A DNA stretch of 64,000 bases. It comes from Peronospora farinosa (lineage: Eukaryota > Oomycota > Peronosporomycetes > Peronosporales > Peronosporaceae). The stretch spans positions 62,001 to 126,000 of the forward strand of contig CANTFK010000633.1 of NCBI GenBank assembly GCA_947646735.1, written 5' to 3'. This document shows positions 1 to 54,443 of this stretch, in pieces. Under the pieces are notes generated by a model that was given only the letters and a program-made list of their open reading frames with translations, made no database searches and was not told the DNA's origin. Both the position numbers and the translations under genes were made by a program. Numbering within the stretch: position 1 is the first letter of the stretch; every line of letters begins with the position of its first letter.

Positions 1-282
1 CCAGATACTGGTTTTGACCATGGCGGAAACGTTTCTGCAGTAGACTTTCCACATGGAATTGAAGGTTCCCTTGTCCGTGAAGCAAAGCCGGAGGAGGCCG
101 GTGTATCGGCACAAGCTCATGCCGAGCTACTTCAAGAGGTGCAGTCTCTCCACTGTGCAGTCAATGAATTCCCGCCTCGAGTCTCTAAAATAGAGCCGAA
201 TCCGAGGGAGGGTCAGCTTGACATCTTAGTTCAGATGATACGTCCCGCGACAATACCGATAAGCTCGGCGCAAGCTCCTTAG
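1..282 (+). pseudogene. C-terminal part of the Gypsy-1 antisense ORF, copy A
   Basis: The plus frame is open from the window edge to TAG at 280-282 and ends at the same residue as the homologous frame in the complete copy (both end in ...AP). A local 6-nt net deletion keeps the frame. The leucine-zipper segment seen in the other copy is destroyed here by frameshifted residues in the middle. Substitutions between the two copies fall on all three codon positions about evenly, so this pair gives no evidence of purifying selection. Confidence 0.6.
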
Positions 283-1038
283 TGTTCACTTGGGACGGAT
301 CCCGATATGGTTTGAGCATGCCGACGTAGAACACGGGATGTGTACGCAATTTGCGCGGCAAATTAAGCGTAAACGCTAGGCCTTTCTTGGCCACGACCGC
401 AAACGGTCCAATGAAGCGCGAATGCAACTTTGTCTCAAAGACAGCAGACACTACTTTAGTAGGTAGGCTCTAAGCATTAACTAAGACTTGGTATTCGCTT
501 TCATAACAGTTAATACAACTTTTGACTTTATCATCAGCATATTTTTGTTTTTCTTGGCTATCAGCCATTGCGTCACGCACATGTCTTAAGACAAGCAACC
601 GCGTCGCGGAAACGCGCTCACCTGTTTCTTAACAGTATTAGGGCTGAAATCAGCAAGCCGATCGGCAACCTCTCCCCCACCAAGCGCCGAACCACTTGGT
701 GGTAGCGTAAACGGAACACACGGATGCGTGAGGCCATTCGCATTAGAACGGAATGTAGCCGGTCGAGGCGTGCACGGAGTTATTGAGTGCAAACTCAACA
801 ACAGGGAGCATAGATCTTTATCGCTTAGGCGTTTCGGCACAAACGCTGCGGAGGATATCTTCAAAAACACGATTGATACGTTCAGTTTGACCACCGGTCT
901 GCGGATGATCCGCTGTGGACATGTCTAATCGGGTGCCTAGCACCTGAAAAACGGACTTTCAAAACTTATTCGTGAAGCGTAAATCACGGTCAGAAACAAT
1001 TGCCACTGGCAAGACATGCTGACATATTACTCGATCGA
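185..1038 (-). pseudogene. Gypsy-1 integrase C-terminal remnant, copy A
   Basis: The minus strand at 185-451 reads the integrase C-terminal domain with the typical RFIGPF and HPVFYVGMLKPYRDP motifs. Farther upstream on the minus strand (586-1038) the core end is split between frames. It is parallel to 5150-6028 of the complete copy. It is a dead fragment of a Gypsy pol gene. Confidence 0.8.
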
Positions 1039-1912
1039 CTGATGTGTTAAAGTAAAAGTTGGAAAGTTTTCCAAAGAAGTGTTTCGAAGAGTGAGTTTTA
1101 TTACCAACATTATGTGCGCCCTAACTACGAGCACCCTGATTTGCAGCCGCTCCCTTTCTCCTGCACGATGTTAGCACAAGATGTGCTCACCTTCCGTCTT
1201 TTCTGTCGCCTGCAAATTAAAATATACAAAACAAAAGGTAATCCTGGAAAACGGCAGTTTCTTGTGTCTTGAGACCTGGTAGCAATTAAAATACCGTTTT
1301 CCAACATGATGATCCATTAATCTGGTAAAAGACTGATTAAGGATAATCGTGTTTACCCCGAACACCTGTGTGGGGATCACTATATGCTATATCCTATTAT
1401 GTAGACGTCAAGCTAGCTAGGGGAATAACGAAATACGCATCACTCTCTCTTTTGCATTTAAATTGTGTGTGCTATTGTTGTCCTTTTTATTTAACTTCTA
1501 ACATAGGCCTCCATAGGGGGGCTACACGCTAGCACCGTCTTTTTGGTGCATCATGGGTAGCCGGCGGATAGAGACCCAAAACCTCCGGGGCTTGAGTGTC
1601 GAGATTCGAGCGAACTGGCTTAAATCCTAGAGAAGAACGCCCGCAGCCGACCGACCGTTTTTCTGGTTAATACAGAAGACTCATGTAAAAAGTGACGGGG
1701 AGGCAGACCGTCTAGCGGTTACCTGAACGCGATTAATGGAGCAACATCAGCCACACGAACCGACGTTGTCCCATTAAAATGTCGATGAGAGCGAAATGGG
1801 TGAAGTAGCTATTGTGACGACACCACTATTTCCGAAGTATTCACTGTAATAATCAGTCATTGTTGTGACTGATAGTTGAGGGAAGGGGTAATGTAATGTC
1901 GTGAGCCCGTTA
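1039..1912. other. Unassigned non-coding stretch
   Basis: No open frame with recognisable content and no match to the LTRs or repeats elsewhere in this window. It lies between the truncated Gypsy-1 fragment and repeat R1 and may be decayed mobile-element DNA, but I see nothing that shows this. Confidence 0.5.
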
Positions 1913-2233
1913 CACAACAATGAAGTGCCAATGTAAATATATCTTATCTGATAATATTCGACAATAGTATCTTTTCTTATCGTATTGTACTCGCATCTTC
2001 TTTAAGTTGGAGATGCCTCTAATTGACTGATAGGCCATGATATCACTTAACGCGCTGGCCAATGACAGATGGACGCGCGCAATGAGAGGATGGCAATTAG
2101 TCAGCATACATATAAGTATTTATATATCGTTAAAATAGGTTTCAAATGATTTCTATTAAGAAGTCTTTAACTACTGTATATATAATACAGTTTTCCTTTT
2201 CTACAACTAAGCGTGTTCGTTTAGTTGTATAGT
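1913..2233 (-). repeat. Interspersed repeat R1, uninterrupted copy
   Basis: About 320 bp that recur in reverse orientation as 18815-19030 plus 25203-25310, where the copy is split by the Copia element. One end carries a short palindrome (TACAACTAA ... TTAGTTGTA, 2203-2231). It encodes no protein. The class is unknown: a MITE or an old LTR are both possible. This copy shows the empty target site of the Copia insertion. Confidence 0.8.
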
Positions 2234-3229
2234 TTTGTCTGCTTCCGTCAATGTACATGAAATTCCGAAGCACCTGCTTACACTTTCGTCAGTATGCCAT
2301 TTTCAGTATAGTCAGATACCATGTACAAGCTGACAGGAATAAAGGATTTCGCGTACACGTAGACAGTTTAGGTTCGTTAAATTGTGAGCGGAACGACTCC
2401 ACCTCATCCAAAAAGCGTTATGCGAGTCTCGACCGAGCCCATTAAGCACGTGTCGTCTGGAAGGACAGCCATACGGCTAATTCGAATGCGGCAAGAAACA
2501 CACGCAAGGAGACAGCAATGATATCTACCGAAGACCAGACGACGGATGCTTGATTGCATCCAATTCCGGACAGCGCTGCAGTGACTCGATGGAAGCCACC
2601 GACACGAAACAGGGGCGCTGGCGTTCTAAGGGTGAGTTTTCACCCGGAGGATTACACCAACTACGCTGCCCACATAGGAATGCAAAGAGCGGGCGGTACG
2701 GCTGAAAGAAATGTTTGAGGCGGTGCAGGAGGCGATGAAGGCAGCTACGCCTGGAGTATGGATAGCTACGATAGTAAAATTGTACAAAATTGAGCATGAT
2801 GCTGTGACTATTGCTGCGGAACTAATGCCTACCGGAAATAAGAAACACTTTTCAAAATTACGACACACCGAGAAAGAAACCTTATTCAGACTCTTTAAAA
2901 AAATGTGCATTGTCAGCGACAGCCCATTATGAAGTAGGTTTACTACGCAAAGACGGCGACATAAGATCTCTAGAATCAAGATGGTTGTTTAAAGCATCAT
3001 GCAAAGCTTAATTGTCAAGGTAGGTGCAACATTACTAAATTATTAGACTGCCAAGTCAAGTCTGGGACTCGACAAAGTAACGCGAAAGCGCTAAGTACCT
3101 ATCAAGATTTCATGTTTAACCCAGAGGTCTTCAGCAAAACGGATATGAGACGCTTCGCACGCTCATCCAGCAGCAAAGGTCGAAAGGAAAGGCTGTCAGC
3201 TTTAAGAGGGCACCTTAGACAAATGGAGG
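2234..3229. other. Unassigned stretch with one short open frame
   Basis: About 1 kb between repeat R1 and the Gypsy-1 insertion. The plus strand has one 73-codon frame (2711-2932) of normal amino-acid composition but no motif I recognise. It may be a relic of an older element. No promoter or splice model could be supported. Confidence 0.4.
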
Positions 3230-3234
3230 GTCAT

Positions 3235-3872
3235 TGTAGCGGAGCTGCACAGCTCTTTGGCCAGAGGAAGACTTTTGGCTGGAAGCCTCTTAGTTCTAGA
3301 GAACTAAATAGAGTTAAGGCTAAAAGCCACTTAGTTCTAAGGAACTAATGTAAATGACTCAAAAATCACCCTGTTCTAAGGAAGTAGGAGAGACTTTTAG
3401 TCAGCAAGCAATAATCTTAAGGTTCAGAGAACCAACGCACATAGTGCAAGAGAAGCTAGAAGCTTAGGGGTTCAGAGAACCAACGCACGAAGTGCACAAG
3501 AGAGAAAGTCAAAACGACTTGCGATCTTAAACTCAAAAGGAGAACTGATTGTATTTAAGCTTTAAGATTTTATGAATAGTCCTACTCTAAGTACCCTACA
3601 CTAGATATTAATTACTATAACAGTAATTATAATATGCAGAATTTGCTATTGAACGACGTATCGTCTAAACATCTGTGTATGATGTACTTAGTACAGCGTT
3701 ATCGATTATCGAATCCTAATCGATAATACGGTATACCGAATACCGTATCTTTAGCGCTCATACTTAATACCTCTCTAAAGAGAAGTATAATAATGCATTA
3801 TATGCAATAGAAAGGAGAGTTTAACCGTAAACTTTCGGAATAATGTTACAATCGTCGTGTAACCCCGTTACA
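3235..3872 (-). repeat. LTR-A, 3' LTR of Gypsy-1
   Basis: 638 bp, nearly identical to 9908-10545. It begins TGTAGCGG and ends CGTTACA on the plus strand. It differs from its partner mainly in a short block near the right end and at single sites. It is the 3' LTR because pol runs on the minus strand. Confidence 0.95.
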
Positions 3873-3884
3873 CTCTCCCCCACC
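3873..3884 (-). other. Polypurine tract of Gypsy-1
   Basis: The minus strand reads GGTGGGGGAGAG directly before the TG of the 3' LTR, the usual plus-strand primer site. It fixes the transposition orientation as minus independently of the coding frames. Confidence 0.9.
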
Positions 3885-3966
3885 GGACTGACATTCCCAT
3901 AGAATGTCATTCGACATCTTTCCTCTTTTTGAGGTTTTGCTTTAGCGAGCGTTTAAACCTTACGAT

Positions 3967-5268
3967 TTGTTTACGGCACACAACATGATGCCTCCTGGCA
4001 ATGAGTCACAGACTCTACGGGACCTCATTGAAGACAAACTTGACGAAGCGAATGATTACGAAAGTGACACCGTCTTTGTGGGACCCGATGGGTCCCCTTT
4101 AGCCACCCTTACGGGTGAAGATGACACTAGTCATGCACCGAATCCGTTTCCTGAACGTGGTGCTGCAGATGCGCTAACAGCGTTACGAGACCCGCCTGAC
4201 GTATCATCAACGGTAATGGTTACCAATCAACTCGACGAGCGGCAACAGCAGACCATCGACCAAAAAGAAGGCGCATAGCGCCGGACGAAGAATATGGCGA
4301 GACTTCAGGACCACCGACAGTACAGGTTCAAGCCACCTACGGTGGAAGAACGCCTAAAGGAAGCATCTGGGCATTCCCTTTTTGGCTGGACCATTGGGCC
4401 TGAGGCCATTTCACCTGAGGATGTTGCCACGCGCACGGCACTTCGACAACGATATCTAGAGCCCCACATTACGACACAAAGCCAATACTTGGCACGCCTT
4501 AACCGGCAAGTGCGCGGTGCGCCAGTACCTCCTATAAAGGGTGTTACCATCCTTCTGTTCGTATGGGAAACCGAGGACGAAGAAGACACGGCTTTTAGCC
4601 GCTGGGCGCATTATGCGCGACGTTTAAGCAGCATGTGGGCCCTACGGGCAAGTGCCGATGTGGCAGATGTTCGACTCGAGCGAAAGATGCGTTATGATTA
4701 CGCTAAATTGAAGGCTCGGGAAAAATTGAAATCCCAACGAACGCATTATGCGTCTGCTACCCAGAATCCCAATGTTTCGGCTTCACCTGTAGCCGCGAGT
4801 CCACGACAGTCTGAGGCCGCTAACCCGCCCACACCCACCATTACTGGTGAGAAGCGTCAGCGCCAACAGGCTGACCCTGCGCACGACGCTCAAAAACGTC
4901 CACGGCGTATGGGCAGTCCTGCCGAAGGGGAGTCTCAAACTCCCATGAATTCCACGATTCGGAATAACCCCGCCACTTTACCAGATACTGGTTTTGACCA
5001 TGGCGGCGACGCTTCTGCAGTAGACGCTCCACATGGAACTGTAGGTTCCCCTGCGCATCGAGCAAAGGAGGCGGAGGCCGGTGTATCGGCAAAAGCTCAT
5101 GCCGAGCTTGTTCAGGAGGTGCGGTCCCTCCGTGAGGAGAGGCAGACGATTAACTCCCGGCTTGCGTCCCTGGAAGAGAGTCGGACCCGTATGCAAGATC
5201 AACTTGACATGTTGGCGCAGATGCTTCGTCCCGTGACAGTGCCAATGGGCTCGGCGCGAGCGCCTTAA
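3967..5268 (+). CDS. Antisense ORF of Gypsy-1 (unknown leucine-zipper protein)
   Basis: A 434-codon frame on the strand opposite to pol, starting 95 bp inside the 3' LTR. One TAG at 4276-4278 divides it into a 103-residue part (3967-4278) and a 324-residue part (ATG 4294, stop 5266-5268) in the same frame. The second part has a helical N-terminal region, a Pro/Ser-rich linker with a bipartite basic stretch (KRQRQQ ... KRPRR), and near the C-terminus six heptads with L, L, I, L, M, L at one position, a leucine-zipper pattern (about 5100-5250). The 3967-4840 part lies outside pol; 4841-5268 overlaps the chromodomain and integrase end antisense. The end of the frame is also present in copy A. 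I recognise no known family. It may be a regulatory protein, or an open frame without function; the split by TAG argues that this copy is damaged. Confidence 0.55.
4841..5149 (-). pseudogene. Chromodomain of Gypsy-1 Pol
   Basis: The minus frame contains FHVERLL, then QYLVKWRGYSESWNSWE, the signature of the C-terminal chromodomain that directs chromovirus integrases to modified histones. It is in the same frame as the integrase end but is cut off from it by TAA at 5150-5152, so a full Pol from this copy would lack it. The whole segment is overlapped on the plus strand by the antisense ORF. Confidence 0.85.
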
Positions 5269-6250
5269 CGTTTACTTGGGACGGATCCCGATACCTTTTG
5301 AGCATGCCAACAAAGAACACAGGATGTGTACGCAATTTGCGCGGCAAGTTAAGCGTATACGCTGTGCCTTTCTTGGCAATGACCTTAAAGGGTCCAATAA
5401 AGCGCGGGCGCAACTTCGTTTTAAAGACAGCGGATACTACATTGGTAGTTAGATTTTTAGCATTTAATAATACTTGGTCTCCGAACTTATAATAATCAAT
5501 ACAACTTCTGCCTTTCGCATCTGTATATTCCTTTTGTTTATCTTGACTATCAGCCATTGTATCTTGCACATGTCGTAAGACATTCAGTCGCGTCGCGAGA
5601 AACGCGCTCACCTGCTTTTTAACAGTAATAGAAATGACATCAGAAAGCCGATCGGCAACCTCTCCCCCACCAAGCGCCGAACCACTTGGTGGTAGCGCAA
5701 ACGGAACGCGTGGGTGTGTGAGGCCATTGACATTAAACGGAGTGTAGCGGGTAGAGGCGTGCACGGAGTTATTGAGTGCAAACTCAACAACAGGGAGCAT
5801 AGATCTTTATCGCTTAGGCGTTTCAGCACAAACGCTGCGGAGGTATATCCTCAACGACGCGATTGATACGTTCAGTTTGACCATCGGTCTGCGGATGATC
5901 CGCTGTGGACATGTCTAATCGGGTGCCTAGCACCTGAAAAACGGACTTTCAAAACTTATTCGTGAAGCGTGAATCACGGTCAGAAACAATTGCCACTGGC
6001 AAGACATGTTGGCGAATCACTCGATCGATAAACAGCTTCGCTGTACCTTCACCATCGATCGAGTCTGGTACAGCCGCTAAGTTAGACATCTTGCACAAAT
6101 GGTCAACGAAGATCACAATATTTGTGTTTTCATGTAAATCTTTCGGTAGGCCAAACCCAAAGTCTCGACTAATGGACTACCAGCACCCATTGGGAATAGG
6201 AAAGCTAGTCAGCGGTGCTGCCGAATGGGGCGAGGGTTTCACTTGTTGAC
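5150..6250 (-). pseudogene. Gypsy-1 integrase core and C-terminal domain
   Basis: The 5150-5800 frame (216 aa) starts within the end of the core and carries the C-terminal domain (RPRFIGPFKVIAKKG, HPVFFVGMLKRYRDP). Upstream on the minus strand, split between frames, 5830-6150 reads the DDE core with VSDRDSRFTNKFW and [19 protein letters not shown] frameshift near 5840 separates the two. It would insert the cDNA copy into chromosomes if intact; it is broken here. Confidence 0.85.
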
Positions 6251-6277
6251 GCTTTTCACACGTACGCACATATGTGC

Positions 6278-7216
6278 TCACCCATTTGTACAATTTGGTC
6301 CACCAGCAAATTGGAACACTGCCCCATAGGTCTTTTCTTGACCCAAATGAGCACCGATGGCGGTGTCATGTACCTCATAGAGGATCTTAAACTTCAGGTC
6401 CTTATCATGAGAAGCCACAATACGCGGTGGGTCTTTCAAATCCGTACAATAGTATAACAGCTCCAGATCGATGCAATATCGATGGAGGCTCGCACGTGAT
6501 CGTACTGACAATTTAATATCCGAGTCTTTAAACTCCTCACTGCCAAGAGCATGTAGCAACGCTATACAGTAATCATCTTTAGCATACGCCGTACGAATGA
6601 GATCGGTGATAGAAGACGACAATGTCGTCACATGAGCAAGCTCATAGTCAGGTCTGCGTGACAACGCATCAGCCAAAGCATTTTGCTTGCCCGGCTTATA
6701 TTTCACCACGAGATTATACTAGGCAAAGAATGACAGCCATCTGGCCATTCTCTGCGAGAGATGCGGCGACTGAGTCGCAGTGCGTAACGACGCATGATCG
6801 GTATAGATCACAAAAGGCTTTGAGCCCAGCAGATGAACTCTGAATTTGACCAGAGCATACTTTATCGCAAGTAGTTCTTTGTCATGAACTAGATAAATCT
6901 TTTCTGCAGCTTTCAGCTGGCGAGATTCAAAAGCGACTACACGCTCACGACCTTCATCATCTGTTTGTAACAGATCACTGCCAATGGAAAAATTCAATGC
7001 GTCACAGACGACGCTAAACGGTCGGTCAGGGTCTGGCAAAGCCAAAATAGGAGCATGTAGAAGGCTCGCCTTCACCGCTTGATAAGCATCTTCGTGTTCG
7101 GCATGCCAACACCATTCCACATCCTTTTTAAGAAGATTGGATAACGGCCGAGCCATATCAGCGTAATTCTCGCTATACTTGTGTAAGTAATTGGCAAGGC
7201 CAAGCCATTTACGCAA
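6278..7216 (-). pseudogene. Gypsy-1 RNase H and integrase zinc-binding region
   Basis: The 6719-7216 frame holds the end of RT (LGLANYLHKYSENYA) and RNase H (FSVVCDALNFSIGSDL, VHDKELLAIKYAL, VIYTDHASL). A TAG follows, then 6278-6709 continues with KYKPGKQNALADALSRRPD and the HDTAIGAHLGQEKTY zinc-binding part of integrase. Family catalytic positions D, E and D of RNase H are visible. The break between the two frames makes the polyprotein non-functional. Confidence 0.85.
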
Positions 7217-7304: not shown

Positions 7305-9269
7305 CTAGAAAGGGAATCTCTTCGGCCCCGAAGATGCACTTAGATGCATTAGCATATAATTTATTAGTGCGCATGCACTCGAGCACAGCTCGTAAATGAA
7401 CAATATGATCTCAATATCTGACCGCCCATGTTCAGCCCGACTATGGACAAAAATGGCATCAAAGTACGTCTGTGCATAGCTTCGATGGGGTCGAAACAAT
7501 TGCGTCGCCAAACGGTTAAACGTAGCCGGAGCATTAGATAGCCCCTTAGGCATCACTAACCACTCCCGGAGCATACCGCTCGGAGTACTAACAGCAGTAA
7601 GCGGAATATTACTAGCTCGCATGAGCAATTGGTAATAACCATCGACTAAGTCGAGCGCACTGTACATGGTACAACCGACCATATTGTTCTGAAGAACATC
7701 CTTTCTAGGTATCGGCGTCTGTGCAGGTATAGTGGCCGCATTGAGCTTATTATAAGCTTGAACGATACGCCATTTACCATTCGGTTTCTTAACACAGAAA
7801 ATGGGTGTCGAGTGCGGAGATTTACTCTCACGCACCATGCCCGCCGCGTGCTTTGCCCGAAATAACTCTTCAATGACGTCACACTGTTCTTTGGGTAAAG
7901 GCCACTGCCGTGTTACGCAGTATTTGGTTCCGGGAACCAAGTCAATTTCATGACGTACACCCCTATCAGGTGGTAGAACCGACGGTGGATCGTGACACAC
8001 CACGTCCTGGAATTCCTTTACCAAAGGGTAGTAGGGATCTGAAGGGTTCTTCAGAATAGATGCCCCACTACGTGCACTTAGTGCCGCTTTGGTATCTTCA
8101 AGGACTGTCTGATCGACAAGCGAGGATGAGTTCAGCTCGACGTTAGGTCGAATGACCACCATGTCGGATAGAGCACCTGCCTTCAAGGCCTGATGAAATT
8201 CATCCACAGACATTTCGTCTAGCTCTAAAAGAGCATTTAATGATGGGAGGGCCTCAAGGTCAATCTCACCATCTACATCACCTGTCACTCCGTTGACCAG
8301 GGTGTACAACTGGTCACTGACATTACTATGCGATAAAACAGACGCTTTGCGCCTCGCAGCCTCCATCTGGCTACTCTGCCGTCTCATTGACGAGACCGTA
8401 CTCTTCAAAGTACTTGGGATATTATCATCCCCAAGGTCAACAGATCCCTTGTCATTTACCTGCCCTATGCGAGGGCCGATGTCATTACCGACACCCAGTG
8501 GGTCACTAGTACCAGTGACTTCACTAACAAGGTCATCGACCTTCACTTGCTCTATACGAGAGCCGATGTCATTATCGACATCCAGTGAATCGCATTTACA
8601 GCCAATATCACTAACAAGGTCATCGACCTTCACTTGCTCTATACGAGAGCCGATGTCATTATCGACATCCAGTAAATCGCATTTACAGCCAATATTACTA
8701 ACAAGGTCATCGACCTTCACTTGCTCTATACGAGAGCCGATGTCATTACCGACATCCAGTCTATCGCATTTACAGCCAATATTACTAACAAGGTCATCGA
8801 CCTTAACTTGCTCTGTACGAGAGCCGATGTCATTACCGACATCCAGTGTCTCAATATTACTTTGAGTATCACTCAATGGAGTACGTGCCGTTCCACTAAG
8901 TGTCATTGAGCTCTGCTCGACACTATTATTGTTGACATCGGAGTTTATCGACTCAGACACTCCAATGTCCAGCACACTAACTGAATCAGTTAATGGCTCG
9001 CGCCAATAGCACTTTTGTTTTCTAGCGAAGGTGGAATCATGACTCTCCAAAGATTCTCTAGGAGCATTGCGCGTTGCGCCTAAGTTTTTAGATCTCCAAT
9101 CGATCCATGGCTCATGGCGTTCCAGCCAGGCCATACCGATAATGAAATCATATCTTGAGTCCAAATCTAGGACAAGACAGCGTTCAACGCTATTGAAGTC
9201 TAAGAACTTCACACCTAAGTTCAACGGAACTTTAGGAACGGTGACACGTACACCGGTCGCGAGACGCAC
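7305..9269 (-). pseudogene. Gypsy-1 protease tail, spacer and reverse transcriptase
   Basis: A 654-codon frame. It begins in the second half of the aspartic protease ([20 protein letters not shown]), passes a long acidic spacer with four to five 29-residue repeats, and ends in RT ([43 protein letters not shown]). The catalytic box reads YFDA where the related Gypsy-2 copy has YFDD, so the second catalytic aspartate is lost. Shortly after it the frame shifts and runs into nonsense. RNase H resumes in another frame from 7216. Confidence 0.85.
8500..8850 (-). repeat. 87-bp in-frame tandem repeat in Gypsy-1 pol
   Basis: The anchor AAGGTCATCGACC recurs at 8529, 8616, 8703 and 8790, exactly 87 bp apart. 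On the minus strand each unit encodes 29 residues of the type [20 protein letters not shown] followed by NIGCKCD. It lies between protease and RT and keeps the reading frame. Confidence 0.9.
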
Positions 9270-9500
9270 GGTTATACTGTCACCCTCTTGTGCTTCTAGC
9301 GCCTCAGCATACAGCTGACTCCCTTCAAGGGAACGACGTCGGACATAATTACCTGACGCCCCTGAGTCAATTAAAATTTACCATGGTTTCTTAAAACCCT
9401 TAACGGTTGCCGACACAACCAACAAGCCTGGATTGTAATCTTGTTCTATGGGAGCATCCACAGAACCACCTGGGGCTAAGCCCTGTATACCTTTACCTCC
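9270..9500 (-). pseudogene. Gypsy-1 aspartic protease, N-terminal half
   Basis: The minus strand reads [18 protein letters not shown], the retroviral-type aspartic protease active site (D-S-G), directly upstream of the 7305-9269 frame. A TAA codon sits three residues before LIDSG (near 9377-9379), so the frame from Gag into protease is closed. The protease would release the Gag-Pol products. Confidence 0.75.
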
Positions 9501-9547: not shown

Positions 9548-9905
9548 CTACTGGGAGTTGACGTTTTCCCCTGCGGTGCTCGCCTTTTGGATAAGAGCAG
9601 GGTTTCGGCTTTGCAGATTTGAACGTTGCTTTCGCAACGGACAGCTAGGGCGGAGATGCCTAGTGCTTCCGCACATATAACATCTACGGATGTTAACTTG
9701 CTGCTCAGCAGCTTGAAACTCAGCTTCTTCAGCTTGACTGAGATCCATGGGTTCCGCCCGATTAGAGGTATTTGATTGATACCAGGGCAGACCATATCGA
9801 GCAGATTTAAAATTAAATTCAGCGTTAAACGCTATGCTTACTGCCTCCTCAAAAGTCGAAGGCTGGGCACGGAAAACTTCCGTCCTGGCGACCCCAGTGC
9901 TACCA
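9548..9905 (-). pseudogene. C-terminal Gag of Gypsy-1 with zinc knuckle
   Basis: The minus frame is open from the PBS: STFEEAVSIAFNAEFNF, then AEPMDLS, then CYMCGSTRHLRPSC, a CX2CX4HX4C nucleocapsid knuckle. The N-terminal part of Gag found in the Gypsy-2 relic (about 37 kb) is absent: the PBS is followed at once by the Gag C-terminus. This is an internal deletion, since the LTR, PBS and target duplication are intact. Confidence 0.8.
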
Positions 9906-9907: not shown

Positions 9908-10545
9908 TGTAGCGGAGCTGCACAGCTCTTTGGCCAGAGGAAGACTTTTGGCTGGAAGCCTCTTAGTTCTAGAGAACTAAATAGAGTTAAGGCTAAAAGC
10001 CACTTAGTTCTAAGGAACTAATGTAAATGACTCAAAAATCACCCTGTTCTAAGGAAGTAGGAGAGACTTTTAGTCAGCAAGCAATAAGCTTAAGGTTCAG
10101 AGAACCAACGCACATAGTGCAAGAGAAGCTAGAAGCTTAGGGGTTCAGAGAACCAACGCACGAAGTGCACAAGAGAGAAAGTCAAAACGACTTGCGATCT
10201 TAAACTCAAAAGGAGAACTGATTGTATTTAAGCTTTAAGATTTTATGAATAGTCCTACTCTAAGTACCCTACACTAGATATTAATTACTATAACAGTAAT
10301 TATAATATGCAGAATTTGCTATTGAACGACGTATCGTCTAAACATCTGTGTATGATGTACTTAGTACAGCGTTATCGATTATCGAATCCTAATCGATAAT
10401 ACGGTATACCGAATACCGTATCTTTAGCGCTCATACTTAATACCTCTCTAAAGAGAAGTATAATAATGCATTATATGCAATAGAAAGGAGAGTTTAACCG
10501 TAAACTCCCGGAAAGACACTACAACCGTCGTGTAACCCCGTTACA
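9908..10545 (-). repeat. LTR-A, 5' LTR of Gypsy-1
   Basis: 638 bp, partner of 3235-3872, flanked on the right by the target duplication GTCAT (10546-10550). Near-identity of the two LTRs marks a recent insertion. As the 5' LTR it should hold the promoter for the minus-strand transcript; I did not identify the start site. Confidence 0.95.
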
Positions 10546-10550
10546 GTCAT

Positions 10551-13404: not shown

Positions 13405-14308
13405 AAACGATCTCTGCAAGAGTATGTGCAGGAGATGCGTTCGCTTTCTGTAAAGAGAAGTTCACAGTTCTAGGTATGGAGAGTCCGTATGACCTCATCC
13501 TAGGCATGCCTTGGTTGGCTAAACACCAACCATGGATAGAATGGCGTACACGCACAGTCGCTAAATCTACGCAAGACACGGGAAAGGATGTGCACTTGCG
13601 AGAGGTTTATGTGGCTGATGCTGTGTCCAACACAGTCGAGGGTGCGATGACGGTATGTCAATCGGCACCAGGAACTGCCCAGCTCTAAAGGAGTGGTGTA
13701 GTTGGAAGTGATCTGGCAGAAAGCCAGGTGACACAAATTCCTACCCGGCTAGAGGAGACTGGTGTAGTGAATGGGACGATGACAAGTAGTCATGCGTCCA
13801 ATAGTCCTGCACAGAGCCAAGAGCCTGTGGCAGTTGATGGTAGGCTGACAGGAAGTCAAGCGTCACAAGAACCGTCACAGAGCCATGAGTCTGGTGCGGC
13901 TGGATGGAGTGCGTTGGCTAGAACAGCAACGACATTTTCTTCCAGGTTAAAGATCGTGGTGACTCGACCAATGAGCACCAGACGTATTAAGACGATCAAG
14001 GGCACGTCAAATGAGTGACCCTTGACAAACCTCTGAACGAATTGTTCGAGGTCGTCGAAGACAAGATGCCGGAGGCATCCTTAGCTGAGGTGCTCCAACT
14101 TGTCTTGGCATATGCCGAGGAGATAGTAAATCTCTCGGAGATGACGTGGGATCGATTCTTGTCCGAGCTAAAGGAAGGAGATATCCACGAGATAGTCGCA
14201 CCAGTTCCAGAAGAGAACGTGGTGGACTGTTGTTCTTCGTCCACAATGGACGAGAGCGTCTTGGAAACCGACAAAAAGAAACGGTTCGCCGCTTAAGGCT
14301 GGGACGCC
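13405..14308 (+). pseudogene. Gypsy-2 Gag remnant, protease end and Pol spacer
   Basis: Gag resumes at 13405 (RSLQEYVQEMRSLS) and is joined by a deletion to the protease end (KFTVLGMESPYDLILGMPWL), so the Gag zinc knuckle and the protease active site are missing. The spacer frames 13476-13688, 13728-14018 and 14015-14296 match the relic at 35489-36610 nearly residue for residue but are separated by stops and shifts. Confidence 0.8.
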
Positions 14309-15114
14309 TTGAAGGACAACCCGTTCTATGATGTTCTGTGGAAACACCGTGATGTGTTTCCAGCAGAAGTGCCGAGCCGCCTACCGACCGATAGGGGCAT
14401 CAGGCACGAAATTGGCCTGGAGCCTGGCACCAAGTATTGTGTGACCAGGCCATGGCCGTTGTCGAAGGAGCAAGTCGATTACATCGATGAGTTCTTCGAC
14501 AAGCGAGCCAAGGCGGGACATGTACGTGAGAGCAAGTCGCCTCACTGCAGCCCGACCTTCTGTGTGCGTAAAGCAACGGGTGGATGGCGCGTGGTTCATG
14601 CTTATAAAAGGCTAGACACGGCCATTCCGACTCAAACGCCGATCCCGCGGAAAGATGTTTTGTTGTATTCCATGGGAAAGTCAACTATCTATTTCGCGTT
14701 GGATCTGAAGGATGGCTACTATCAAGTGCTCATGAGAGATACTGATGTAGCCAAAACGGCAGTAAGCACCCCAATCGGTATGCTGTGGGAGTGGCTTGTG
14801 ATGCCACAAGGGTTGAAACATGCTCCGGCAATATTTATCCGAGTGGTGGCTCACGTGATGCGTCAGCACCGTGCCTACGCGCCCCATTACTTTGACGATG
14901 TATTCGTGCATAGTAGGGCGGAGGACGGTCTGAGCGCAATAGAGTCGCACAAGCGTCATTTAGACGCTGTGTTGCTAACTCTGGGTGACGCCCAATTATA
15001 CGCTAGCTTGCAAAAGTGCGTAATAGGGGTCCCCGAGATACCTGTACTGGGCTGCATCGTAGGTGCACACGATGTACGAGCAGACCCAGAAAAGGTATAG
15101 GCTGTAAAGGAATG
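14309..15114 (+). pseudogene. Gypsy-2 reverse transcriptase with intact YFDD box
   Basis: A 263-codon frame (14309-15100) covers RT from RHEIGLEPGTKYC through SPHCSPTFCVRK, FALDLKDGYYQVLM and the catalytic HYFDDVFVHSRAED to the connection (LGCIVGAHDVRADPEKV). TAG at 15098-15100 stops it before RNase H. It is the best-preserved RT of the window, but its element has no integrase or complete Gag. Confidence 0.85.
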
Positions 15115-22754: not shown

Positions 22755-23960
22755 TTATTCAGAACTTGAAAAATCTTCTAATTTCTCGTCGACTGTGTTT
22801 AACGCGTAGCGTCGATCGTTGTCTACATCATTCTGGCGTCCCTTTTTCTTTTCAAAACGTTTGGTACGTTTGCTTGTATGTGGACAATCCTTTCGAATGT
22901 ACCTTTCCATGCCGCAATTGTAGCAACTTCGTTGTGGCTTCGCCTCATTAATCGAATTCACGTGATTTTGCCCCGATTTCTTGGGCTTATGCAAATCACC
23001 TTCCAGCTCCTGAGCCCACGCAATTAATTCTTGTGCGTGCTGAATGTAATCTTGTCGCTGGGGATTGTAGCGAATCATTAATGCCATTTTCAAATGAGGT
23101 GCAGCATACTTAACGATTTTTTCCACAATTAACTTCTCGTGCGAACCGCTCTCTCTGGCTAAAGCCACAAGATACAGGAAATGTTCGGTCCACGACCTAG
23201 ACACATTCTTTTCCGCGGCGAACCTGTTTGCGGCCTGTTGATGCGTGATGTTGACCTTAAATGCATTATGCATCTGGTCCAAAACGTAGTATAATTGAGG
23301 CGAAACGGCCCACCAGATGCCAATATTTGCTTGGAAGTAACTGGCCGCATGGACTTCCATATGCTCTCCAAGCTTGTTTACCTTCAAACGTTCCGTCCAA
23401 GCAAAACCAGAGGACAATTCCGTGACCTCAATTGCCTCGATAAACAAATAAGCCCACTGCTTAAAACCTGCACCGAGACCTGCATATATTTCAGCTCCGT
23501 TGAAATTCTGAATGTTCAACTTTGGTATTGTTACACCCCCAGATGGGCCAAACGGATTCATCACGGGATGTCTTTGCGGTGGCATATCTCTCACCATCCC
23601 TTGACCCTGTGCTTGACGAGGGTACTCTTGTTGAGCGCGAGCTGCTCCAGCACGTATATCTACACCCCGTTCAATGCCATCCTCCCCACTAAGATCATTT
23701 ACTGTCATCCTCTGGCCAAATGGCCCGTAATTTTTGAGTGTCTCGCGAAAAACACTTGCGTTTTCCGAGGTATGAGAACCTCGCTGTGACCCGGGCGACG
23801 TACTTGGAGCCGATGCTTGAGAGCGTCCTTCCTCAACAGCATTCAATCTTCCTTCCAGACGCTTGACATAATTCAAAAGATCGTGACTGGCAGCGGCTGT
23901 TTTATCCTCGCTGTCCTCCATCTCGATCTCAACCCTTCCTTTACCAAAGGGGACTTCCAC
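22755..23960 (-). pseudogene. Copia Gag with altered zinc knuckle
   Basis: 401-codon open frame. A short coiled-coil N-terminus, a proline/serine linker, the UBN2-like Gag core (FKQWAYLFIEAIEVTEL ... VSRSWTEHFLYLVALARESG) and one knuckle CYNCGMERYIRKDCPH. The histidine of the CX2CX4HX4C pattern is replaced by tyrosine. The frame itself is intact, so this Gag might still be made. The start at 23960 follows the Y-type LTR and PBS by about 60 bp. Confidence 0.75.
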
Positions 23961-24018
23961 GTAATCGAAACGAAGGTCTTTGTTTAAAACTTTGTGAACT
24001 TAATAAAATGGCCGTAAT

Positions 24019-28388: not shown

Positions 28389-30290
28389 TCAACGGACACG
28401 TCGAAGAACGACAGCCCAGTTTGACTCATCGTAGTAGCTTGTCTCCACCTTGGCAATGCCTGACAGCTCTACAAGGCTCTCCAGTTCACCTTGCTTGAAC
28501 ATGTGGCAATATCGTTGAACTACCACGCGTTCTTGCACTTTCGTAGAGGGCTTATCGTCGGTGTCATCGCCAATGATTCCATTTCTAACATCGATGGGAT
28601 CTTTGTATGTATCGTCACTCTTTCCGTTGCGCTCAGATTTCACGGCAGTCGGGCTTTTTTCAAAGGAAGTGGCAAAACGCTTGTCCAAGTTCCAAGGCAC
28701 CATGAAGTCTTGCCGGCCTTCTTCAAAACGACGACGAGAACCCGTCATCTGCTCATGCGCCCATGCGTAAATGATTCCACGTCCGCCCACACGCAAAACA
28801 CGAAGCAGCTCCTTCACAGCCGCTAGTCGGTGACCAAGAGTACTGAGATGGTGAAGCACTGCGATTGACAGCGCAGCATCACACGAGTTCGAGCGCAACG
28901 GAACTGCTAGTGCGTCACACACCATCGTTTCAAGTCCGCGGTCTCGACAGATATTCACGAGACGTGAGCTTCGGTCACCGCCCATTACAAAGCTCTGCGT
29001 TGAATCGACACACTTCATATATTTCCCGTTTCCGCAACCAATATCAGCGATCACAGAACCACTCGGCAGCGTTGCTACGAAGTGAGCAACTCTCGGCCAT
29101 GGGCTATGTCGAGTGCTGCTAAAGTGCGCCGCTACTGTCTCATAAAATTTATGAACGTACTGTTGCTCCAACACGGTAGGTGCCAGGCTAGTTTCAGCGT
29201 CCTCTTCAGCCTCTTGCTTACTAGTATCCTGTCCTTCACGCATTGGGGTGTCGCAATGCTTTGGGTATGGACATTCGCACGGGCCTGATCGGATCTTACG
29301 AAAAGTAATGCTCAGTCTCCGTTGGCGTGCCACCTGCTTCCCATCGATCACATCAAACGTGCGTGGAACAATGGCATGCTCCCAAATGTAACGACTCACC
29401 CCGCTCATAACAGTTAGTGAACGCGCTGGCAAGAGCACACCTTCATTTTGAATGCCATCTGGGTGCCGAAAGTCCATAACAACTTCACTACAGATGCTCA
29501 ATGTTGCAATGGTGGTCGTAAATGCCGAGTGGGTGTCGAAGTGAAAAGCAATCCCTTGTCCCGGTAAATACTCGTTTACTGTAATCTGATCAGGTTTGTC
29601 GCCATCCATTATCCTGCATTCTTCTATCTTGTCAATTATCGATTGCAACACTTGTGGTATCGGTTCTTTCATCGGCTCATTAGAGTCACATCTCCTCGTA
29701 TCATAGTTAAACGTGTAGCCAAAGTGCTGCACTTGTCTCGCTCGAATGGTATGAGCCCAATGAGCTCCATTATCTCTCTCAAAGAAGGCAAGACACGCAT
29801 CTTCTTGTGCTTTAGTAATAAACTCAGCCTCAAATCTCAGTCCTGGAACTCGTCGTTCAGGCGAATCAGCATTACGTTGAACATGGTGCACTCTCAGGAG
29901 CCGATCACGAAATTCTTGCTCTTTTCTTGGTATTGCAAACTCGACGTACATGGGACGTCGGCCAAGCAGCTCACAAGGCTGTTCATGGAGCAATTCACGC
30001 AGTTTCTGAGCCACCTCAATGTCCGAAAATTCCAGCAAAATGACACGACGTGAGCCAGTCCCGTATAGTACGCGATTTACGATGGAATCAGCGTTTAAAG
30101 CACTGAAAGTTGAGGTGGAAGTCGACTGCAGCAGTTGGAATAGGAACGGGACGAGCTTGGACTCTGCGATCGTTTTGTCTTTGATGCGGCGACTCATCGT
30201 AAGTTTCAGAAAAGCGCTGGGCTGCTCATCGATGACAAAGTCGGTTAGCTTAAGCTCTAAAGCGGCTGGAGACTCATTAGTGTCGCTCAT
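28389..30290 (-). CDS. ALKBH8: Alkylated-DNA-repair homolog 8, tRNA wobble-uridine enzyme
   Basis: Single-exon frame of 633 aa combining the three ALKBH8 modules. Residues 20-125: RRM-like RNA-binding domain. Residues 160-335: AlkB 2-oxoglutarate/Fe(II) dioxygenase with HFD (H250, D252), EHAIVPR (H305) and RRLSITFRK. Residues 385-630: S-adenosylmethionine methyltransferase with VIADIGCGNGKY (about 413-424) and LSIAVLHHLST. The enzyme completes mcm5U and hydroxylates it to mchm5U at the wobble base of certain tRNAs. Four cysteines around residue 338-346 follow the AlkB domain, as in animal ALKBH8. The frame is complete, so the gene looks functional. Confidence 0.93.
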   Translation of the reverse strand: MSDTNESPAALELKLTDFVIDEQPSAFLKLTMSRRIKDKTIAESKLVPFLFQLLQSTSTSTFSALNADSIVNRVLYGTGSRRVILLEFSDIEVAQKLRELLHEQPCELLGRRPMYVEFAIPRKEQEFRDRLLRVHHVQRNADSPERRVPGLRFEAEFITKAQEDACLAFFERDNGAHWAHTIRARQVQHFGYTFNYDTRRCDSNEPMKEPIPQVLQSIIDKIEECRIMDGDKPDQITVNEYLPGQGIAFHFDTHSAFTTTIATLSICSEVVMDFRHPDGIQNEGVLLPARSLTVMSGVSRYIWEHAIVPRTFDVIDGKQVARQRRLSITFRKIRSGPCECPYPKHCDTPMREGQDTSKQEAEEDAETSLAPTVLEQQYVHKFYETVAAHFSSTRHSPWPRVAHFVATLPSGSVIADIGCGNGKYMKCVDSTQSFVMGGDRSSRLVNICRDRGLETMVCDALAVPLRSNSCDAALSIAVLHHLSTLGHRLAAVKELLRVLRVGGRGIIYAWAHEQMTGSRRRFEEGRQDFMVPWNLDKRFATSFEKSPTAVKSERNGKSDDTYKDPIDVRNGIIGDDTDDKPSTKVQERVVVQRYCHMFKQGELESLVELSGIAKVETSYYDESNWAVVLRRVR

Positions 30291-30943
30291 ATCGAGATGA
30301 CCAGTAATTATTTACGTGTGGTGTTATAATCCAAACATGGAGCCATTTCGACCTGTATTGTATGTTGATATGGGTACATTTGAGCCCGCTGACCAGAACT
30401 CACTTACACATTTGCGCCGTGATATCCATCCGTTACCTGTATATTCTACAGTCGTACACTCGATCAAGGTCAAGGCAGTTTGTCTTCTTCGTCCTGACGC
30501 TGCCTGACGCACAACTTGCCTTTAAAGTCCGGAGTAATATAATTGTGGACTCGAATGGATGCCAGCGCACATCGCGGATAAGTCTGCTAGACTTCATTGC
30601 AAATGCCTTTACAAGGTCACTATAAATACTGTCAGACACTTACACACGATCGTTCGCTGAGCCCGTGTATATGTACTTTTGCGCGGTGGAGTGGAGTGGC
30701 GAGAAGTAGCACCGAATAAGCGTCTCGATGACCATGTTATCACGGTATGTCATCACTGACTGTCATGTGGGTGCTAAACTGGCGCCATGCTGCATCCTGG
30801 TTACGTCTAATAGCGGTAGTACTACGAGAATGGTCTGCGGAAGGCGAAATTTCATTATGATCATCCGATGAAAAGCATCTTAGAGTTTGGTTGTCCGGTA
30901 AGTAGAAGTCATCATCTCTTGACGAAATGTGCATGATGCCTTC
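30291..30943. other. Non-coding upstream region of ALKBH8
   Basis: 650 bp with short chance frames on both strands and no motif. It ends where an LTR-B fragment begins. Confidence 0.4.
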
Positions 30944-39534: not shown

Positions 39535-39722
39535 GCAAGGGGATTAAGTACGCTCTTGGGCTTGCTAAGTTCGGTATGCAGTACTTCATCCTAAGGTTCG
39601 CACTGGATCTCGGTAAGTTCGTTCTCCGTTTGAAGTGTATCTTCAACTTCAAAAGCGCGGGAAAAAGAAACAACTCTTTGAGTTGCCGCGTTAATTGACA
39701 AGCTACAGAAGAAATCAAATCA
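39535..39722. promoter_or_regulatory. Shared upstream region of TatD-like and HTH genes
   Basis: Only 188 bp separate two divergent starts, so the promoters must overlap. No clear TATA or oomycete initiator was found. Co-regulation is possible but not shown. Confidence 0.4.
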
Positions 39723-40844
39723 ATGGCGAAAGGTATTTGGATCTCGGATGAAGAACGCGTCAAGATTCTTCAGATGCGCAAGGACGGGGTGCCAGTCTCT
39801 ACAATTGCCAAGAGAACGGAACGCAGCACCAATTTCATCTACCGGATCTTGAAGAAAGCCAACGGTCCAGCGCAGATCAAAACAAAGCACAAGACTTTCA
39901 ACACTTCAGCAATCAATGGGCCTTCTGCTTCAATTGCTGCTGCAGAGCGCAACGATAAACGTGATCAACTGTCGGGAGATCTCACCGACTCCAATCCAGC
40001 GTTTCTATGCGCTGTCGAAGGCATGGAAGTGTCATCTTATGAGCCAATTCCAATGCCAAGATCAGTGAAAAGCTTTGAACAACGTTACAATCAAGTGCAA
40101 CAATCGCGACTAGAAAGTGTGGACGTCAACGTTGGCTTTGCTAATGCGCCAGTTGTCTCTGATCCTGTTAAACCTCAAAGTGTTGAGGCAACGGACGAGT
40201 TTTGGCTGTTGACAGATACGACGTCATCTAGTCGTACATTGAGTTCATCCTTGGATACTTCCAAACGCAACCAAGAGCAGAGACAATTGTCTCTACAACC
40301 GCTGAAAAGGCAAAAGACTTCAGCTGCAACAGCTCAAAATCCGGATGAGAAAAACACCCAAACAACTTGTACACCGACATCTTCATCGTTGCTTGCGGGC
40401 CTCCAGCTCCAATGCTCTCATACAGCAAAAAACATGACTGCGGACTCTATTGATGGACTCAGTGAGCTTCTCAAACGGATTCAAAACGAAATTCGACGAC
40501 TGGAAGGATCAGCCCAATCTGATGTGTATGATGCTCAGCTGCTACAGTTGCTTGTCAAATTTTACGCAGAGATATTATTTATGCAGCTTCAAAAAACTCT
40601 CTCTGATGCTGAGGCTAGTAAGCGTAGCAGGGATGCAGATACCGACGGTAACGAAACAAGTCGATTGCTCCGCGAGAAACTGGCGAAAGAAATCGCCCTC
40701 TTAAACGTCCAGGCAGACCGCGAAACACTGGAGCTGGAGCGTGAGCGAATCCGACACAAAACGACGTCGATGATTTGTCGCAAAACTCTACTGGATGCCA
40801 ACACGCCTCAAACCGATGTGGACCAACTCTTCTCTTACCAGTAA
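39723..40844 (+). CDS. HTH / coiled-coil protein of unknown function
   Basis: Single-exon frame, 373 aa. Residues 5-48 (ISDEERVKILQMRKDGVPVS, then TIAKRTERSTNFIYRILKKA) look like a homeodomain-like helix-turn-helix of the resolvase/transposase type. A long Ser/Thr/Gln-rich middle follows. Residues 250-350 (LSELLKRIQNEIRRLEGSA, then REKLAKEIALLNVQADRETL) form a probable coiled coil. Such an order fits a DNA-binding protein that dimerises; it may have come from a mobile element long ago. I do not recognise a named family. The start ATG is right after an in-frame stop region and gives the HTH at the N-terminus. Confidence 0.75.
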   Translation: MAKGIWISDEERVKILQMRKDGVPVSTIAKRTERSTNFIYRILKKANGPAQIKTKHKTFNTSAINGPSASIAAAERNDKRDQLSGDLTDSNPAFLCAVEGMEVSSYEPIPMPRSVKSFEQRYNQVQQSRLESVDVNVGFANAPVVSDPVKPQSVEATDEFWLLTDTTSSSRTLSSSLDTSKRNQEQRQLSLQPLKRQKTSAATAQNPDEKNTQTTCTPTSSSLLAGLQLQCSHTAKNMTADSIDGLSELLKRIQNEIRRLEGSAQSDVYDAQLLQLLVKFYAEILFMQLQKTLSDAEASKRSRDADTDGNETSRLLREKLAKEIALLNVQADRETLELERERIRHKTTSMICRKTLLDANTPQTDVDQLFSYQ

Positions 40845-51430: not shown

Positions 51431-52708
51431 TCATTTGGTCGAGAAGAACGATCGCAAGTCACGCTGTTTAGGCGGACCGCTTTGCTTTTTAGCCTCTTTC
51501 TTGGCCTTAGTAGCCTTCTCCGCGGCCGCTTTTTTCTTCTTCTCCTCCACTCTCTTCTTAGCAGCCTTTTGCTCTTCTTCAATCTCCTCGGCCGTCAACT
51601 CTACCTCCTCGTACGTCTTCTCCGTGACCATGTAACCTTGTTCATTGATGCGCGTCTTGGTGACGACAACCCGTCGCTTAGTCTCGAGCACAGGTTCCTC
51701 CACAGAATCGTCGTCAGCTTCGTCTTCCGACTCCACGCGCTGTTTCTTGTTTGACGGAGACTCGTCGTCCAATTCCGCAGCCTCTTTTGTCTTCTTCGTC
51801 TCAGCTGGAGAAGCATTCAATTTTCGCTTTACGTTGCGAGTCTTTGGAGCAGGTGTTCCTGTCTCCTTCGGAGGTGGCACCTCGTCCATTTCCTCGTCAT
51901 CGTCACTAATAATTCTCTTATTGCTCGAAGTCTTGACAAACACAGGAGCATCCGTCTCGTCGTCGTCTTCTTCGTCGTCACTGTCCATAGTCAGCACGTT
52001 GCTCATGTCGAGTTTCTTGGTCTCTTGTTTCCTGCTCTCTGTCATCTTGCTATCTCCATTCTTACTCGAGCTACTGACCTTGGATCCCCCTGTTTTCTTG
52101 CTGCTCTGAAAGAACGACGTTGATGATATGGAAGACGATAGTTTCTTCTTAATCGACGTGTTAATGGCATCGAAGGCCGAGATGGTCTCCTCACCCTGAT
52201 CTTCTCCGACATCTTGTCGTGCCGTAGCCTCTACACACTTAATTCCGCTTATATAAAGCGCCTTAACAGCTGCAGACAGAGGTGCATTCTTGGTCACTGT
52301 ATTGAACACGTCATTGCGTGCCTGACGCTCCTGTGCCCAACAGACTGTAGCCACGGCCGTCACTTCGTCTTCGTTCTCTGCAGCAGTATTTGACTTGCTG
52401 TAGAGCGCGTAAATCTGCTGATACAACACGTCATCATTCTTTCTCTGACTTCCCACTGCTAGAGACAGCACACGAGCCCTTGGATCGCGTTTAGCGGCTG
52501 CAGTCTCGCTCTTGTCGTCAGTGGCCACGGGTACTCGTTTGATCAGCAATTGCAACGTTTTAACGTTGCTATTCTCGGCAGAAAAGTCGGTGAGGGCTTC
52601 AATACTAACATTTGAGGGTACTTGAGAGCGAATACTGAGCGTACGGTATGAAATAGGCTCGCCTGCGTCCAATACCGTTGAGGAGATCTCTTCCAGACAG
52701 CGCTCCAT
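51431..52708 (-). CDS. POLD3: DNA polymerase delta subunit 3 (POLD3/Cdc27)
   Basis: Single-exon frame, 425 aa. POLD3 holds the B subunit of polymerase delta and contacts PCNA. The N-terminal half (ISYRTLSIRSQVPSNVSIEA ... VLSLAVGSQRKNDDVLYQQI ... WAQERQARNDVFN) fits the winged-helix region of the family. The middle and C-terminal parts are strongly charged (acidic blocks around DDEEDDDET, Lys/Glu-rich helix), as in Cdc27. It ends QRDLRSFFSTK, a canonical PIP box (QxxLxxFF) at the extreme C-terminus. The family is weakly conserved, so the call rests on layout plus the PIP box. Convergent with RUVBL2, 122 bp apart. Confidence 0.8.
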   Translation of the reverse strand: MERCLEEISSTVLDAGEPISYRTLSIRSQVPSNVSIEALTDFSAENSNVKTLQLLIKRVPVATDDKSETAAAKRDPRARVLSLAVGSQRKNDDVLYQQIYALYSKSNTAAENEDEVTAVATVCWAQERQARNDVFNTVTKNAPLSAAVKALYISGIKCVEATARQDVGEDQGEETISAFDAINTSIKKKLSSSISSTSFFQSSKKTGGSKVSSSSKNGDSKMTESRKQETKKLDMSNVLTMDSDDEEDDDETDAPVFVKTSSNKRIISDDDEEMDEVPPPKETGTPAPKTRNVKRKLNASPAETKKTKEAAELDDESPSNKKQRVESEDEADDDSVEEPVLETKRRVVVTKTRINEQGYMVTEKTYEEVELTAEEIEEEQKAAKKRVEEKKKKAAAEKATKAKKEAKKQSGPPKQRDLRSFFSTK

Positions 52709-54402: not shown

Positions 54403-54443
54403 GTCTGTAGTAATAGCAAGAGATTATGATTAGAGAATGCACA

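Follow-up and report, generated by a model that had tools for sequence, protein, structure and literature searches.

Antisense open reading frames (ORFs) located between pol and the 3' long terminal repeat (LTR) have been described, under the name aORF-3R, in the plant elements Grande (gene23), RIRE2, Retand and PvRetro13 and, outside plants, in Boty, an element of Botrytis cinerea / Sclerotinia sclerotiorum (PMC7264820). The Grande product is reported to be nuclear and transcribed from its own promoter, and the functions of these ORFs are given as unknown in the same source (PMC7264820). In the Retand lineage of non-chromovirus Gypsy elements, the antisense gene encodes TRP28 (Transposase_28, PF04195), for which a regulatory role has been suggested and which is apparently found in flowering plants only (PMC11963269). 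The deltaretroviral HBZ is an antisense regulatory protein encoded near the 3' LTR, with a C-terminal basic leucine zipper (bZIP) domain (PMC10186651). Among oomycetes, chromodomain Ty3/Gypsy elements with captured domains, e.g. Chronos, are described in PMC5348765, the main text of which does not contain the word 'antisense'. Here we report on a plus-strand frame, at positions 3967 to 5268 of a 64,000-nucleotide stretch of a Peronospora farinosa contig (CANTFK010000633.1; the whole stretch is called the window below), which faces the 3' region of a minus-strand element of this type. Judging from the variation among its copies and from its homologues, the frame almost certainly codes for a protein, has been selected as such and represents an antisense gene of the element, an oomycete chromodomain Ty3/Gypsy retrotransposon.

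The ORF shares with the plant aORF-3R its place between pol and the 3' LTR, its orientation antisense to gag-pol, its presence in most copies, its conservation over species and the lack of clear protein relatives (PMC7264820); it is conserved across copies (24 of the 40 best-scoring ones) and across species (at least 13 named). Unlike the plant ORFs, it overlaps pol, by 141 codons, and is thereby set apart from Grande, RIRE2 and PvRetro13 as these are described; the pol of the element, unlike that of Retand, ends in a chromodomain. Boty, also compared by description, is alike in the place of its ORF and unlike in its fungal host. TRP28 is similarly antisense and similarly placed, but membership of this family was rejected: PF04195 gave no match for the protein of copy L005 at E up to 5, nor for 23 family members at E up to 1, and the element, having a chromodomain, is not a non-chromovirus. 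HBZ and APH of primate deltaretroviruses are likewise antisense proteins encoded near the 3' LTR; by description, both differ in host and element class, and HBZ in having a basic region continuous with the zipper. Chronos and others, compared by description, have in common with this element the oomycete host, the Ty3/Gypsy type and the chromodomain (PMC5348765). Antisense ORFs at this place are already known in plant and fungal elements, and the novelty here seems to lie in the family of the protein, as judged with Pfam, in a stramenopile as host and in the 141-codon pol overlap. No description of an antisense ORF in an oomycete element was found among open-licence papers searched by title and start of abstract, Repbase being outside this scope. 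The likeness to the known systems may extend to the way of working, through place, orientation, perhaps an own promoter and probably a dimeric product.

Selection on the antisense frame and its homologues

The features that define the locus are the following.

3235..3872, minus strand: 3' LTR, direct repeat D2 (98.4% identity over 641 bp with 9908-10548)
3873..3884, minus strand: polypurine tract (PPT), GGTGGGGGAGAG on the minus strand, read from sequence; the leaders of other copies have comparable tracts next to the LTR
3985..5268, plus strand: antisense accessory ORF, 427 codons plus stop, interrupted by a TAG in the window copy and intact in copies elsewhere in the genome
4844..5149, minus strand: 3' end of pol with the chromodomain (Pfam PF00385, E 5e-13); the pol frame ends at 4844
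4844..5265, plus strand: stretch of the antisense ORF shared with the 3' end of pol

The original prediction, made from the sequence alone, had placed a Gypsy element on the minus strand, facing a 434-codon plus-strand frame with a single TAG that starts 95 bp inside the 3' LTR. LTR, PPT and pol are all read in the expected order, and the frame was reproduced at 3967-5268: it comprises 434 codons including the terminal stop, with codon 104 (4276-4278) as the sole internal TAG. The 95-bp gap agrees with the interval next to the 3' LTR and PPT; the first ATG is that of position 3985, some 110 bp inward of the 3' LTR. The earlier division into about 290 codons outside pol, with the remainder antisense to its end, becomes 286 and 141 codons when counted from this ATG.

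In the host genome, 301 candidates were obtained by a DNA search; the best-scoring 40, matching the query from position 1 to 1301 or 1302 of 1302, were scored and fetched. The whole ORF is intact in 24 of these 40 copies (23 of 427 codons, one of 431), a share that is overstated for the family as a whole, since the 40 are the best-scoring of the 301. Several stops in most copies, a pattern named beforehand as contrary to a coding frame, was not what they showed. Of the six frames in the stretch outside pol, only this plus frame is ever without a stop, namely in 28 of the 40 copies; for the other five the count is 0 in every case, and no open frame was obtained in 2000 dinucleotide shuffles of the same stretch.

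As young copies may be open for lack of time, shared variants were compared with private ones. Variants present in at least 3 copies were considered shared, i.e. arisen during replication of the element, whereas private variants are mostly post-insertion; copy L003, 99.9% like L002, was left out of the counts, and variants found in two copies were counted only at threshold 2. Over the region outside pol (3985-4842), the shared variants fall 16, 8 and 49 times at the first, second and third plus codon positions, corresponding to 27 nonsynonymous and 46 synonymous changes. The private variants are distributed as 66, 73 and 74, with 146 nonsynonymous changes (stops included) and 67 synonymous ones (Fisher p 3.4e-6 for the shared versus private comparison). 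The contrast persists whether the threshold is set at 2, 3, 4, 5 or 8 copies, and is also found when the 16 broken copies (shared 10/3/32, private 50/50/55, p 3e-5) or the intact ones (p 7e-4) are taken alone, or when L001, L009 and L031 are left out. It is strongest in the middle third of the region, where shared variants are found 3, 1 and 22 times at the three positions. No such codon-position bias among shared variants was seen in the other two plus frames outside pol. A minus-strand protein with coinciding third positions would give the same bias by geometry; this candidate was rejected, as its frame contains at least 5 stops in each of the 40 copies.

Comparison with a divergent copy, L041, the protein of which is 54% identical, gave a ratio of nonsynonymous to synonymous substitution rates (dN/dS) of 0.22 outside pol. 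The lowest value, 0.11, was obtained for residues 81-250, dS being there near saturation. The ratio near 1 that had been named as the mark of an unselected frame was therefore not found, in line with the third-position bias of the shared variants. On this evidence, the substitution patterns show that the protein was under purifying selection while the element replicated.

Two other diverged copies of the ORF (G000:C200:296899-298179 and C186:225969-227249) contain 7 and 6 TGA stops, with few or no TAG or TAA; the excess of TGA might reflect a decay bias of C-to-T type.

Homologues of the protein were collected by one sequence search and two profile searches, each scoring 7,994 or 7,995 candidates sharing most words with the query. 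The resulting 77, 80 and 37 rows, which overlap, correspond to at least 123 clusters. The named sources are at least 13 species in three genera. Among the matches listed are Peronospora effusa, P. matthiolae, P. destructor, Hyaloperonospora arabidopsidis and H. brassicae, together with Phytophthora ramorum, citrophthora, idaei, cactorum, fragariaefolia, sojae, rubi and palmivora; further homologues come from ENA, JGI and other records without species. Most are 30 to 60% identical to the query, the best among the matches listed being that of P. effusa (93%), to which the host is probably close within Peronospora, and no named source outside the downy mildew/Phytophthora group is found among them. 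Their labels are mostly uncharacterised, hypothetical or unnamed, with two ill-fitting exceptions, an anti-sigma factor (one JGI record) and an SH3-domain protein (one P. cactorum model). The element-encoded antisense protein proposed in the original prediction can thus be recognised as a product under purifying selection, common to downy mildews and Phytophthora.

Some of the gene models overrun the ORF. Five such ends, picked by eye, were compared with the plus-strand translation of window positions 3001-6500, and for all five the best match was at the expected place. The head of a Phytophthora citrophthora model matches the LTR end and PPT at 3853-3888 (E 2e-5), and that of a record without species matches them at 3859-3900 (E 3e-4); both matches are proline-rich and were obtained with the low-complexity filter off. 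Past the ORF stop, into antisense pol, the tail of a Peronospora matthiolae model matches 5229-5312 (E 3e-8) and two Hyaloperonospora arabidopsidis tails match 5227-5361 (E 1e-9) and 5242-5379 (E 3e-8), each tail match including in part the ORF's own end. Since these ends read the neighbouring LTR and PPT or antisense pol, the same antisense arrangement between LTR and pol is present in those sources.

Other models were seen to depart from the ORF in different ways. Those of P. destructor (P0030) and P. matthiolae (P0019) omit, in an intron-like manner, parts of residues ~280-360, which face the chromodomain. A Phytophthora cactorum model (P0113) fuses the antisense ORF to sense-strand integrase SH3 sequence, which suggests a local inversion.

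Predicted product and candidate promoter

An AlphaFold2 model of the protein was built from 52 sequences, with a mean predicted local distance difference test (pLDDT) score of 66.5. Confident parts are a core at residues 82-250, made of helices and two short strands, and a helix at residues 369-414 with pLDDT of about 94, the rest being mostly below 50. The two regions correspond to these segments of the window.

4225..4734, plus strand: conserved core, residues 81-250, with pLDDT of 79-95 in 10-residue blocks and the lowest dN/dS
5089..5223, plus strand: C-terminal coiled coil of six heptads, residues 369-413

The six zipper heptads noted originally are those of residues 369-413. The N-terminal 80 residues are acidic, with 18 D/E versus 4 K/R. 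The predicted product is accordingly composed of a disordered acidic N-terminus, a compact and mostly helical core, a disordered linker with basic clusters and the C-terminal coil, which should make it a dimer or oligomer.

Domain and fold searches assigned the protein to no known family. Among 23 members scanned with Pfam, the best match was to DUF4349 in one member (E 0.0027), others being weaker. No family was obtained from NCBIfam, nor from PDB by sequence, and no fold match from Foldseek against PDB (run twice), BFVD or VIA-align, with the core not folded alone. A pattern scan of viral_contigs returned 43 matches, 0 of which were confirmed.

In some oomycete core promoters, about 13% of those in Phytophthora infestans, an initiator (INR, YCAYTYY) and a flanking promoter region (FPR, MWTTTNC) are combined into a single block of 16 nt, usually within 50 to 100 nt of the start codon (PMC3599244). 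A similar block is found upstream of the ORF.

3907..3922, plus strand: INR+FPR-like core-promoter motif, about 77 nt before the ATG, with 2 mismatches in the window copy

The leader could be parsed in 32 of the 40 copies, window copy included; the 16-mer has 1 mismatch in 10 of them and 2 in the other 22. Its score was reached, in the best case, L019, by 63 of 4000 shuffles, and by 353 of 4000 for L005. No motif with 2 or fewer mismatches was found in the antisense direction of the LTR in six copies. A promoter in the leader, just inside the PPT, is weakly favoured by these data over one in the LTR.

The host element, other copies and neighbouring genes

The chromodomain Ty3/Gypsy element lies within the first 11 kb of the window. 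This copy is damaged at several places and has an in-frame pol stop at 5150-5152, ahead of the chromodomain. Its remaining features, and the end of a second antisense frame, are listed below.

5153..5806, minus strand: C-terminal part of pol integrase, Tf2-1-like SH3 domain (Pfam PF24626, E 1.6e-15)
7308..9377, minus strand: reverse transcriptase (RT) and protease-like region of pol (PF00078, E 2e-13; PF08284, 17.2 bits, below the 20.3 cut-off)
9551..9905, minus strand: truncated gag remnant, zinc-knuckle end (weak zinc-knuckle match, E 0.027, below cut-off)
9908..10548, minus strand: second LTR, repeat of 3235-3872, fused directly to gag sequence, the remaining gag being gone
1..282, plus strand: end of the antisense frame in a second copy, copy A; 93 codons, open

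For copy A, the retention of the frame's end was claimed earlier; its 93 codons are indeed without internal stop, but the coil appears damaged by eye. An array of 87-bp repeats was observed at 8436-8934, between protease and RT of the element.

A better-preserved tandem pair, L051 (C227:15800-25700), has a full unit of about 7.4 kb, organised as follows in its own coordinates.

108-750: LTR, the next LTR being at 7497
814-2142, plus strand: antisense ORF; gag, protease and pol frames are all minus
1721-5509, minus strand: pol, a single frame of 1263 codons that matches RT, RNase H, integrase, SH3 and chromodomain

Other minus frames of L051 contain the protease and a gag with Retrotrans_gag and Ty3_capsid matches. 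By these matches, L051 has the complete Ty3/Gypsy domain set (gag, protease, RT, RNase H, integrase and chromodomain) and two LTRs. The chromodomain at the pol end matches PF00385 with E 8e-12, while the rve integrase core is slightly under the cut-off (31.2 versus 32.6 bits). The L051 units are arranged head to tail, at a spacing of about 7.4 kb and with an LTR in common, as expected from recombination between LTRs; the same head-to-tail spacing, observed as spacing alone, was seen at C13:397041/404414. At 5328-5749, L051 carries a repeat array at the place matching window 8436-8934.

The divergent copy L041 (G000:C58:174600-181500) has, at 1754-3073 on the minus strand, a 440-codon antisense frame without stops. 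Two in-frame stops interrupt the facing chromodomain. An MCM-helicase frame (Pfam MCM, E 2e-38) follows in the same orientation, about 200 bp after the end of the antisense frame. An ORF preserved opposite a broken chromodomain might mark the start of recruitment by the host, or be due to chance.

Ten other frames, between 14297 and 63552 of the window, were scanned with Pfam. No match was obtained for the frame 22758-23999; the others are listed.

14297-15097: RT
28392-30311: 2OG-Fe(II) oxygenase and methyltransferase
39699-40841: Tc3-like helix-turn-helix
49917-51305: TIP49
51434-52720: CDC27, below cut-off
52996-54423: citrate synthase
56068-59169: chitin synthase
59528-61420: POP1
62713-63552: Sir2

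Role of the antisense gene

Several observations, besides the overstated share of intact copies, weigh against reading the frame as a selected gene for a nuclear regulator, and many of them concern the pol overlap. The overlap spans the chromodomain and the linker preceding it, with plus codon position 2 opposite pol position 3. In this part, two ways of recoding pol synonymously gave P values of 0.04 and 0.085 for openness of the plus frame, which is by itself unremarkable, only mildly unusual. Among young copies, the shared variants track pol, falling 1, 3 and 9 times at its three codon positions in the chromodomain core. The plus frame is near neutral there, with 27 nonsynonymous to 9 synonymous shared changes against 75 to 22 private ones. 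The stretch of the coil (5060-5265) has shared variants at 5, 7 and 6 (n=18), with no codon-position bias in either frame, and dN/dS of the overlap versus L041 is 0.57 to 0.63. The variation seen in the overlap indicates that constraint from pol dominates there. The caution expressed in the original prediction, that third-position bias is lacking between the two window copies, is explained in the same way, because the stretch they share (from 4981) lies wholly in the overlap. As for the regulatory role, a bipartite basic stretch does exist in the window copy as had been noted, but in the family a loose form of the pattern is found in only 21 of the 50 members having the region, and none of the fold and domain matches points to nuclear or DNA-binding function. 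The promoter motif is weak, its score in the window copy being reached by 1296 of 4000 shuffles, and is absent from the L041 leader.

In the plus frame, the coil is nonetheless kept. Its heptad a and d positions are strongly hydrophobic in 73% of cases, versus 17% elsewhere (52 members), a value reached by 0 of 2000 random position sets, the register being the best of seven. In the 40 copies of the host genome, the second base of a and d codons is T in 360 of 480 cases. Hydrophobic a/d residues need this T, which faces an A in the mostly silent third position of pol, so that pol alone does not explain the coil. Between L005 and L041, moreover, the coil has gained or lost exactly one heptad, by a seven-residue indel. 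The coil was thus probably selected as protein, whereas for the part of the ORF facing the chromodomain selection as protein is undecided.

The neutral look of plus-frame changes in the overlap, and the modest P values there, are what an ORF kept open by chance, through antisense-pol codon bias and the youth of the copies, would present. Two thirds of the ORF, however, lie outside pol, where none of the shuffles is open and selection on the frame is visible; as a mere mirror of pol the frame is refuted there, and an origin by chance is extremely improbable. It could also be that the antisense RNA is what matters, double-stranded or small RNAs restraining the element and the ORF being a by-product. 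By geometry, such an RNA would overlap the sense genomic RNA over about 1.3 kb, and the idea, which is compatible with a protein role, has been raised before (PMC7264820). The codon bias of the plus frame, the low dN/dS and protein conservation over three genera nevertheless require selection on the amino-acid sequence, which makes it very unlikely that the RNA matters in place of the protein.

Equally doubtful is an HBZ-like bZIP transcription factor, the resemblance on which the original prediction drew. The antisense position near the 3' LTR, the six-heptad, zipper-like C-terminal coil and the presence of basic clusters speak for it, but these clusters (residues ~287-307) lie about 60 residues ahead of the coil (369-413), with modelled disorder between them and acidic residues directly ahead of the coil. 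No bZIP Pfam model was listed for the protein, either for L005 or in the 23 members scanned. Because of this separation the protein is not a bZIP, in spite of its leucine-zipper-like coil, and the resemblance was not borne out. More room is left for the same gene having another job, as a structural or integration helper (a partner of integrase or chromodomain, an import factor for the pre-integration complex, or a particle protein), which is possible though not what we expect. The gene has been retained together with gag-pol in an element that possesses all the usual domains, the predicted compact core with a coiled coil would suit a scaffold, and for the plant ORFs a part in bringing the pre-integration complex into the nucleus is discussed (PMC7264820). 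On the other side, profile comparison revealed no relation to the element's own gag (hhalign probability 0.2%), and a protein coded on the opposite strand cannot be made within the gag-pol product at a fixed ratio.

We lean, with some reserve, towards the antisense protein being a nuclear regulator of the element. Transcription would start from the small INR+FPR-like oomycete core promoter between PPT and ATG, helped by the adjoining LTR; the product would act as a nuclear dimer, regulating the element either at transcription or through the way its DNA is handled in the nucleus. By analogy, such a role would parallel the proposals made for the plant antisense ORFs and the reports on retroviral antisense proteins. 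A wider reading is conceivable, though less likely than not: an LTR lineage of the stramenopiles, as a third group of eukaryotes, would have acquired an antisense regulatory gene independently and retained it throughout the downy mildew/Phytophthora family, with a promoter of its own just inside the PPT, possibly a new fold, and a part written over the antisense of the pol chromodomain. If this were true, antisense control proteins would be a recurrent invention of LTR elements, not peculiar to deltaretroviruses and plants. As a case of an antisense protein gene lying over pol, the locus is clear and evolutionarily tested; it belongs to an oomycete retroelement of which one genome alone contains hundreds of candidate copies. 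Why unrelated LTR elements should have an antisense gene at the 3' end becomes a question that can be tested beyond plants and retroviruses, and some of the 'hypothetical proteins' of Phytophthora and downy mildews are suggested to be genes of such elements.
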